40,783 nt of DNA, taken from positions 1 through 40,783 of the IMG/VR virus record IMGVR_UViG_3300025298_000093; one strand, given 5' to 3'. The notes under the pieces were generated by a model. The model ran no database searches. It was not told where the DNA came from and worked only from the letters and a program-made list of their open reading frames with translations. This document shows, in pieces, positions 21,061 to 40,044 of this stretch. The DNA comes from a virus. Positions within the stretch are counted from its first letter, which is position 1; each line of letters begins with the position of its first letter. The position numbers were made by a program, and so were the translations under genes.

Positions 21061-21245
21061 GACCTGGTTGGTCCGGGGGGCTGCGGGCGTGGGTGGTGGA
21101 TGGGCCGGGGCTGAATTCCGGCATGACCCCTTAGCCGTTCGGTGCCGCTTACAAGGGGTCGGTATCGTGTAGAACTAGGTGGCCACACCTACACGGCACG
21201 CGATTGTGTCCCTGCGCATCAGCCTGCGCATTCCATCCGAAGTTG
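21061..21245 (-). other. Non-coding gap between holin and tRNA genes with two inverted repeats
   Basis: GACCCCTT at 21125-21132 pairs with AAGGGGTC at 21153-21160. A second nested hairpin has GTGT at 21167-21170 and AGGTG at 21177-21181 pairing with CACCT and ACAC at 21186-21194. No T run follows on the minus strand. The hairpins may process the tRNA transcript or form part of late control. No gene seen. Confidence 0.45.
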
Positions 21246-31493: not shown

Positions 31494-31786
31494 ACACCGC
31501 AGTAGCCACTCAGCAGCAGAGCATTGCCCTGCACCCCGTCGACTCCGCGCAGATTCATAGCATCGGCCACGACCCAGACACCAACACCCTGGTCATCTGC
31601 TTCAAGCGTGGCACTGGCGCTGCCCGTGGCCCGGGAGCGATCTACCACTACGGCAACTTCACTGCCGAGGAATTCCAGGCGTTCAAACAGGCGGAATCAC
31701 TGGGCAAGCACTTCAAGGCCTGGATCAAGCCGTTCGCCGACAAGTACCCGTATCGCAACGTCACCGAGCAGCTGCAGGCGGCGTGA
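31490..31786 (+). CDS. KTSC domain protein
   Basis: A 98-residue protein with VDSAQIHSIGHDPDTNTLVI, CFKRGTGAARGPGAIYHYGN and KHFKAWIKPFADKYPYRNV. This is the KTSC fold, named after the C-terminal end of some lysyl-tRNA synthetases and common as a stand-alone phage protein. The V.S..I..I.YD-like start and the Y.Y..V end are the conserved parts. Role in phages unknown. The next 330 bases hold a tRNA-like RNA element. Confidence 0.82.
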   Translation: MNTAVATQQQSIALHPVDSAQIHSIGHDPDTNTLVICFKRGTGAARGPGAIYHYGNFTAEEFQAFKQAESLGKHFKAWIKPFADKYPYRNVTEQLQAA

Positions 31787-32116
31787 CCGACCACGGAGAG
31801 GAATGCGCAGGCTGATGCGCAGCGAGATGGAATGCCGCAGTTCAAGGGCGCGGCTGCCATAGGTGGTAATGACGGGGCGCTTCGGCATAACCGTCTAGGC
31901 GCTGGATCAGTGCCACCCAGCAAGCCGGAGATCAGCACCGGCCCTCTCCACCAGTAAATCGCGGGTTCGATTCCCGCTAGGTGGCGACGTTGTGGTCAAG
32001 ACGAGATGCGGTTCGATTCCGTGATTGGGCCTTGGAAGCCAAAGCCCGCGTGGTCCCGGCGATACGGGACACCCCATTCCTTCAACGCCGGCCGTGCCGG
32101 CCGGAGATCCATCGAC
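31787..32116 (+). other. Structured leader upstream of recT, no gene
   Basis: 330 bases with no credible coding frame. Contents: a tRNA-like fold at 31911-31986, a second T-arm mimic at 32007-32023, a hairpin GTCCCG-GCGATA-CGGGAC at 32053-32070, and GC-rich repeats CCGGC/GCCGG before the recT binding site (GGAGAT, 32103-32108). A 19-codon frame at 31803-31862 is too short to support. Confidence 0.6.
31911..31986 (+). ncRNA. tRNA-like element without D arm
   Basis: A 76-base unit. TGCCACC at 31911-31917 pairs with GGTGGCG at 31980-31986 as an acceptor-like stem of seven pairs. GCCGG/CCGGC at 31924-31942 makes a hairpin with a nine-base loop. GCGGG-TTCGATT-CCCGC at 31961-31977 is a canonical T arm with the invariant T, T, C, G and A. 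A D arm and a normal anticodon loop are absent and there is no CCA. It may be a decayed tRNA or a functional tRNA mimic in the recT leader. Confidence 0.4.
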
Positions 32117-32938
32117 ATGAACGTTCCAGCCGTCCAGCAGCCGCAGCAGAACGCGCTTGCCACGCAGCCGCGCCAGCAGTTCGACCTCAGCCCACAGACC
32201 TTCGAGCAGGCCCTGACCTTCTGCGACTACCTCGCCGACAGCGACCTGGTGCCCAAGGACTTCAAGGGAAAGCCGGCAAACTGCCTGATTGCCATGCAGT
32301 GGGGCGCGGAGCTGGGCCTGAAGCCGCTCCAGGCTCTGCTGAACCTCGCGATCATCAACGGTCGCCCCGCGCTGTGGGGTGACGCGGTGATCGCCCTGGT
32401 GCGCAGCTCGCCCCTGTGCGAGTACATCACCGAATCGGACGACGGCGGCACGGCCGTGTGCCGGGTGAAGCGCCGCGGCGAATCCGAAGAGGTCCGCATC
32501 TTCAGCATGGAGGACGCGAAGGCGGCCGGTCTCGCCGGCAAGGCCGGCCCGTGGACCCAGTACCCGAAGCGCATGCGCCAGATGCGCGCCCGAGCCTTTG
32601 CCCTGCGCGACGTATTCCCCGACGTGCTGCGCGGCATGCCGATCGCTGAAGAGGTGATGGATATCCCGGCAGGGTCTGACCAGCCCCGCACGACGACCGT
32701 CGTCACCGCCGACAAGGCGCTGCCGCTCTACTCGGAAGCGGACTTCGCAGAGAACCTTCCGAAGTGGTGGGACATCATCGCCAGCGGCAAGAAGTCCGCC
32801 GAGGACCTGATCGCGACGCTTCAGACCAAGGCCCGCTTCACGGCCGAGCAGCTGAAGAAAATCCGCAACCCGCCGACCGACGTTACCCAGGGTGATGCGG
32901 AGAACGACGACACCACCCAGACCAGCGTGGAGAACTGA
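32117..32938 (+). CDS. recT: RecT-family single-strand annealing protein
   Basis: A 273-residue recombinase. Seen: DLSPQTFEQALTFCDYLADS, MQWGAELGLKPLQALLNLAI, NGRPALWGDAVIALVRSSPL and AGPWTQYPKRMRQMRARAFA then LRDVFPDVLRGM, all RecT core. The C-terminal 90 residues are less conserved and acidic. Start ATG 32117 with GGAGAT upstream. It works with the exonuclease encoded two bases later in annealing-type recombination and replication. Confidence 0.93.
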   Translation: MNVPAVQQPQQNALATQPRQQFDLSPQTFEQALTFCDYLADSDLVPKDFKGKPANCLIAMQWGAELGLKPLQALLNLAIINGRPALWGDAVIALVRSSPLCEYITESDDGGTAVCRVKRRGESEEVRIFSMEDAKAAGLAGKAGPWTQYPKRMRQMRARAFALRDVFPDVLRGMPIAEEVMDIPAGSDQPRTTTVVTADKALPLYSEADFAENLPKWWDIIASGKKSAEDLIATLQTKARFTAEQLKKIRNPPTDVTQGDAENDDTTQTSVEN

Positions 32939-39968: not shown

Positions 39969-39995
39969 TGGTGGGCCGTGATGGATTCGAACCAT
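39969..39995 (-). other. Inferred att core at the tRNA-Lys 3' end
   Basis: The integrase gene faces the 3' half of tRNA-Lys and the tRNA is intact, so the phage probably carries a copy of the tRNA end. The exact crossover cannot be set without the other att site, which lies outside the window to the left. Confidence 0.5.
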
Positions 39996-40044
39996 CGACC
40001 AAAAGATTAAAAGTCTTCTGCTCTACCGACTGAGCTAACGGCCC
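39969..40044 (-). tRNA. tRNA-Lys (anticodon TTT)
   Basis: A 76-base cloverleaf: acceptor GGGCCGT/ACGGCCC, D arm with AGCTCAGTCGGTAGAGC, anticodon loop CTTTTAA, T arm with TTCGAAT, discriminator A and encoded CCA. It is the host gene used as the integration target. Confidence 0.97.

Follow-up and report, generated by a model that had tools for sequence, protein, structure and literature searches.

The window, that is, the whole stretch of 40,783 nucleotides that we analyzed, is an entire viral record of 40.8 kb. On its plus strand, a KTSC-domain gene ends at 31786 and is followed by a 330-base gap, by recT (start at 32117), and by recE. A preliminary description of this DNA had named two T arms in the gap, 46 bases apart and each with every consensus base of a T loop, and we confirmed both inside it, at 31961-31977 and 32007-32023. 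The same description had noted that the tRNA-like unit has neither an anticodon loop nor CCA, and neither ARAGORN nor Rfam calls a tRNA there. The gap holds two adjoining structured RNAs, elements A and B, followed by a small hairpin, element C (Table 1). Element B, which contains both T arms, is about 98 nt long, has the order T1-Pc-D1-T2-D2-AAA-Pc, and lies on the recT strand, 68 nt ahead of the start of that gene, with its limit moving to 32070 when hairpin C is counted. A complete tRNA-Lys is present at 39969-40044 on the minus strand, near the end of the record and behind early genes, and is possibly an integration site or host flank.

Table 1. Structured RNA features in the window
Feature	Position	Strand	Sequence	Observation
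Element A, structured RNA abutting element B	31795..31949	+		Fold recovered in 121 of 133 distinct copies; P1 helix in 64 different versions
Element A, P1	31795-31801 with 31943-31949	+	GGAGAGG/CCTCTCC	Outer helix
Element A, P2	31804-31821	+	TGCGCA-GGCTGA-TGCGCA	Hairpin
Element A, P3	31924-31942	+	GCCGG-AGATCAGCA-CCGGC	Hairpin after the variable domain
Element B, putative RNA domain with one or probably two permuted tRNA elbows	31952..32049	+		86 bits; 42 covarying copies
T arm 1 (T1)	31961..31977	+	GCGGG-TTCGATT-CCCGC	4 of 5 pairs change on both sides; 98% of cells paired
Closing helix Pc, 5' strand	31983..31985	+	GGC	Partner 32044-32046
D1 mini-hairpin	31990..31999	+	TTG-TGGT-CAA	Stem covaries; D-loop-like GG at 31994-31995
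T arm 2 (T2)	32008..32022	+	GCGG-TTCGATT-CCGT	Near-invariant; compensatory changes in divergent copies; TGCGG-TTCGATT-CCGTG with outermost letters (32007-32023)
D2 hairpin	32028..32040	+	GGC..TGG..GCC	Five covarying pairs; D-loop-like GG at 32034-32035
Closing helix Pc, 3' strand	32044..32046	+	GCC	Partner 31983-31985
Element C hairpin	32053..32070	+	GTCCCG-GCGATA-CGGGAC	Recurs at the same short distance behind element B
Element A, second copy	21098..21238	-		7 nt behind the phage's own tRNA-Gly

Copies of element B were collected with a pattern scan and a scan for T2 only and were then scored with a covariance model, R1, which set true copies apart from pairs of ordinary tRNAs. The window, itself one of the 22 seed sequences of R1, scores 86 bits (E of about 1e-20). 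The fold is shared by 42 distinct copies (alignment A5), mainly on viral contigs and mostly of metagenomic origin, with scores of 46 to 105 bits and divergent copies down to 38 bits. Exactly one copy per genome was present in each of the 25 records tested. A search of 369 genomes of one class returned one clear copy, in a prophage of S. rhizophila (L083, the same as L016), and five weak matches; blastn with the leader or with element B found zero INPHARED phages and one plasmid.

In A5, 92.7% of the cells are paired and both sides have changed in 17 of the 20 pairs; the outer pair of Pc occurs as GC, UA, CG, AU, and GU. Compensatory cells numbered 149 compared with 39.5 in shuffles, and none of 500 shuffles reached any of the measures, where the counts lean towards the model to which A5 was fitted and related sequences inflate the shuffle tests. 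The covariation score was 0.503, compared with at most 0.089 when the structure was slid, and a structure-free ranking of covariation (alignment A4) gave top column pairs that belong nearly all to T1, Pc, D1, and D2. The slid controls and the double-changed pairs lie far beyond what such bias would give. The fold of element B is shown by comparative sequence analysis. When the window copy is folded by minimum free energy, a T1-T2 duplex is preferred over this fold, and single-copy folding z scores were ordinary, so the case for the fold rests on covariation and not on energy. The duplex is disfavored given that T1 covaries with its own 3' strand and T2 is almost constant. We also considered a coding reading, in which an ATG at 32006, in the region of T arm 2, opens a frame joined to recT; this was ruled out, given that locus L007 is frame-shifted there and other leaders have no ATG.

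These compensatory changes are the opposite of the outcome that the preliminary description had named as speaking against a maintained tRNA-like RNA, and its view that the element is not a product of tRNA decay is upheld. Prophages often integrate in tRNA genes, and the T-arm sequences resemble tRNA 3' ends, as would be expected if decayed tRNA genes or att-site fragments had been kept by chance. Against this stand the compensatory changes, which affect every helix as well as a tertiary pair, the fixed architecture across phages, and the single copy per genome; we regard this origin as already refuted by the covariation and as extremely improbable.

A tertiary pair in tRNA joins the D-loop base G19 to the T-loop base C56. 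The bases of element B at the equivalent places, 31968 in T1 (C56) and 31995 in D1 (G19, the second G of its UGGU loop), covary in the manner of that pair: they are C-G in 36, U-A in 4, and U-G in 2 of the 42 copies and are unpaired in none, and in copy L350 a T1 loop of UUUGAUU occurs together with a D1 loop of UGAU. An unbiased elbow scan of viral contigs, with U fixed at 56 and D1 left free, recovered six distinct copies, four with A and two with G at position 19; C56 with A19 was absent from the viral collection when the same linker pattern was used. The association between positions 56 and 19 has a Fisher p of 1.3e-4, where some of the U56 copies are related and so represent fewer events than sequences. 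Given the C56/G19 covariation, it is very probable that T1 and D1 together make up an elbow of the tRNA type whose order is permuted, with T before D; the two marks of an elbow mimic, a T loop docked by a D-loop GG and a G19-C56 pair, were found for T1-D1 by covariation only. D2 carries GG in most copies and has lost it in some divergent ones, the T2 loop is almost invariant, and we found no informative swap between T2 and D2. A second elbow is likely, given that most copies have an NGGN loop in D2 as in D1 and that D2 stands behind T2 as D1 does behind T1, and we infer that D2 docks on T2. The earlier statement that a D arm is missing thus holds for a standard D arm and not for the two GG-loop mini-hairpins that follow the T arms.

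Element A is very widespread in phages of gamma- and betaproteobacteria and covaries. An exact 20-mer of it occurs in at least 119 stretches in viral contigs, and at least 5 pairs of P1 are formed in 120 of 121 outer helices compared with 36 with swapped partners. Its variable domain ranges from 23 to about 250 nt across copies. The P2 and P3 loops are complementary (GCTGAT/ATCAGC), which is not independent evidence, given that the loop letters were part of the search. No Rfam 15 family matched element A at gathering score. A stretch that includes an enterobacterial copy has matches in 540 of 5,426 E. coli genomes, with no annotated feature at the sites among the matches listed. Element A itself has a tRNA-like topology: an outer stem encloses a D-like and a T-like hairpin, whose loops are complementary, and a hypervariable domain lies in the middle. 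The variable domain sometimes holds T arms or a tRNA-like stretch (core positions L205:7022, L222:3952, L129:9082, L200:2333, and L023:5808), as if it were a cassette holder. In the enterobacterial phage loci L166, L134, L122, and L151, further T-arm units with long outer stems (for example, AGAGCAT...GTGCTCT) lie directly before element A. The outer strand of element A could alternatively pair with an upstream CCACAAC.

The boundary between the two elements bears on the architecture proposed in the preliminary description, which had treated 31911-32023 as one unit; this interval cuts across elements A and B, and the single hairpin assigned to its 76-base tRNA-like part is helix P3 of element A. 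The proposed seven-pair acceptor stem can be written (31911-31917 with 31980-31986, one G-T pair) and is not a feature of element B. Its 5' strand belongs to element A, where it is part of the variable domain, and is absent from other recT leaders, and across the 42 copies the best upstream strand is at chance level (mean run of 6.0 compared with 6.1 for swapped upstream sequences, with 244 of 300 swaps reaching the observed value). Neither T arm has a 7-bp acceptor helix stacked on it, which together with the chance-level stem leaves the suggested targeting by RNase P through such a stem unsupported. Modification by TrmA or TruB is plausible, since both T loops fit the consensus.

The genomic context of element B is varied. 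Many copies have no tRNA close by and many others lie inside phage tRNA clusters; wherever tRNAs were found near, element B is on the same strand as the adjacent tRNAs, and at L255, L262, and L315 it lies within a few nucleotides of a tRNA 3' end. In the window and in related recT leaders, it starts right behind element A. Further copies follow ssb-like genes or lie within long noncoding stretches, as on the Aromatoleum plasmid NC_006823. The 1.5-kb noncoding stretch that carries it there (L424:2652-4198) is unannotated and contains several units closed by long stems, with element B and hairpin C at its end. Hairpin C follows many copies with a loop of GAAAGA, CGTAA, or a GCGATA-like sequence and with differing stems. 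At many loci, elements A and B are followed by small hairpins whose loops are of the GAAAGA, CGTAA, AGACGTAA, or GCGATA type; these are perhaps boxB-like or processing elements.

Given that element B directly adjoins element A and tRNAs on their 3' side, we considered that it could be a tRNA-type processing signal: by attracting RNase P or another tRNA maturation enzyme, it would help to excise its neighbors from a polycistronic phage RNA. Elbows are recognized by RNase P (PMC4810234), which would suit such a role. A conserved acceptor-like helix or NCCA is missing from the copies, the 5' strand proposed for such a helix is the chance-level one described above, and many copies stand away from any tRNA; we consider this role improbable.

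A second possibility is that element B acts in cis as a leader of recT, as the preliminary description suggested when it placed a regulator in front of recombination genes, with the tRNA-like fold enhancing or switching translation or transcription of the recT-recE operon. Its position shortly before recT on the same strand, repeated in related recT leaders, would fit this role, and a start codon also follows some other copies at a short distance. Among the recT relatives fetched, two T-arm-like hairpins precede recT at nine viral loci and in the S. rhizophila prophage; in the recT leader of L023, both lie within the variable domain of the neighboring element. The T1-T2 duplex and the local hairpins could serve as the two states of a switch, and tRNA-like leaders raised translation 2- to 6.3-fold in a study of the yjdF riboswitch (PMC9142559). 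On the other hand, most copies outside the lineage of the window lack both recT and a gene start shortly downstream, many are in tRNA clusters, and the closest recT relatives (87 to 91% identity) have neither T-arm hairpins nor such a leader. A regulator specific to recT is disfavored by these varied contexts, including ssb-like genes and a plasmid, and by the absence of element B from the closest relatives; we consider a cis-acting recT leader rather unlikely.

A co-transcribed, stand-alone RNA that works through elbow-binding factors would fit better than a recT switch, given that copies lie directly behind tRNAs in clusters and also occur without recT, and that the closest recT relatives do not carry element B. 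Its action in trans is favored by this stand-alone occurrence, by the single copy per genome, and by the neighborhood of tRNA clusters. Our best explanation, which we hold to be fairly probable, is that element B is a permuted elbow domain, probably a tandem pair, that forms part of a co-transcribed stable RNA acting in trans. The two T arms would be halves of a compact domain with the fold of a circularly permuted tRNA elbow, probably two in tandem, with T1 docked by the GG of D1, as the covariation supports, T2 presumably docked by the GG of D2, and helix Pc closing D1, T2, and D2 into a single junction. Judging from strand and position, element B would be transcribed with its neighbors, namely element A, tRNAs, and early genes, and would most likely be released by processing as a stable small RNA or RNA domain. 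Elbow-binding factors of the host or the phage could then be presented with an elbow that has neither acceptor nor anticodon. Candidate partners include TrmA, TruB, and PNPase-type nucleases as with YrlA, for which element B may serve as a decoy or a tether. A more specific reading, which we put forward only tentatively, is that of a class of phage RNAs with two permuted elbows in tandem, borne alongside element A in arrays of structured RNAs that lack annotation, that would act in trans during infection to occupy or redirect host tRNA-binding machinery, whether for modification, quality control, or tRNA-cutting defense.

Elbow mimicry is rare among noncoding RNAs, and here the tRNA tertiary pair can be read from covariation alone. 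That many phages have kept this single-copy RNA, in tRNA clusters as well as elsewhere, points to a shared target within the host tRNA machinery. Together, elements A and B show that even in well-studied phage groups, intergenic regions still contain conserved RNA families overlooked by Rfam and gene callers; we found no earlier description of element B or of the element A core in the open-access literature. No Rfam 15 family matches element B at gathering score, and the near-matches in the leader (Plastid-ycf2 on the minus strand, tRNA-Sec, the glutamine riboswitch, and rydB) fall far below their gathering scores.

Among structured phage noncoding RNAs, the ornate GOLLD and ROOL RNAs are also found near tRNAs; they are hundreds of nucleotides long, whereas element B has about 100 nt. 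The M3 RNA of phi80 is a classic phage substrate of RNase P; considered as a relative of element B, it proved to be an annotated oop homologue and is unrelated. With tRNA itself (RF00005), element B shares the T-loop sequence and a tertiary pair of the G19-C56 type and differs in having no acceptor, anticodon arm, standard D arm, or CCA. The interdigitated double T-loop motif of T-box stem I, RNase P, and the L1 stalk, which recognizes tRNA elbows (PMC4810234), likewise places two T loops in one RNA; its T loops are two interlocked pentaloops, whereas in element B the T1 loop would be engaged by a D-like GG. The yjdF riboswitch, in an mRNA leader, forms a tRNA-like elbow between D-like and T-like loops (PMC9142559) and in this resembles element B before recT. 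It has the order D then T, a small-molecule ligand, and direct control of the next gene, whereas element B has the permuted order, is doubled, and in most cases has no fixed gene partner, and its varied contexts speak against a general control of the next gene of the yjdF type.

The nearest known system is YrlA (RF02553), whose Rfam model element B fails: the window scores 12.3 bits, over a T arm only, compared with a cutoff of 69, and YrlA in bacterial genomes scores 66 to 69 bits. We considered that element B could be a phage Y RNA of the YrlA type that tethers the Ro60 protein, given that YrlA is likewise modular and has its T arm before the D arm (PMC8394870). The score far below the cutoff, the two T arms, and the missing acceptor hairpin argue against this, as does the absence of a TROVE/Ro60 gene from all 30 records with element B (several of which are fragments; a positive control was detected), and we judge this identity very unlikely. 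The YrlA layout, with one T arm, an acceptor-type hairpin, and a full D arm inside a long basal stem, does not occur in element B, where two T arms are combined with a pair of tiny GG-loop hairpins and helix Pc. Both are modular, tRNA-mimicking noncoding RNAs with a T arm 5' of a D arm, and by analogy element B may work like YrlA.
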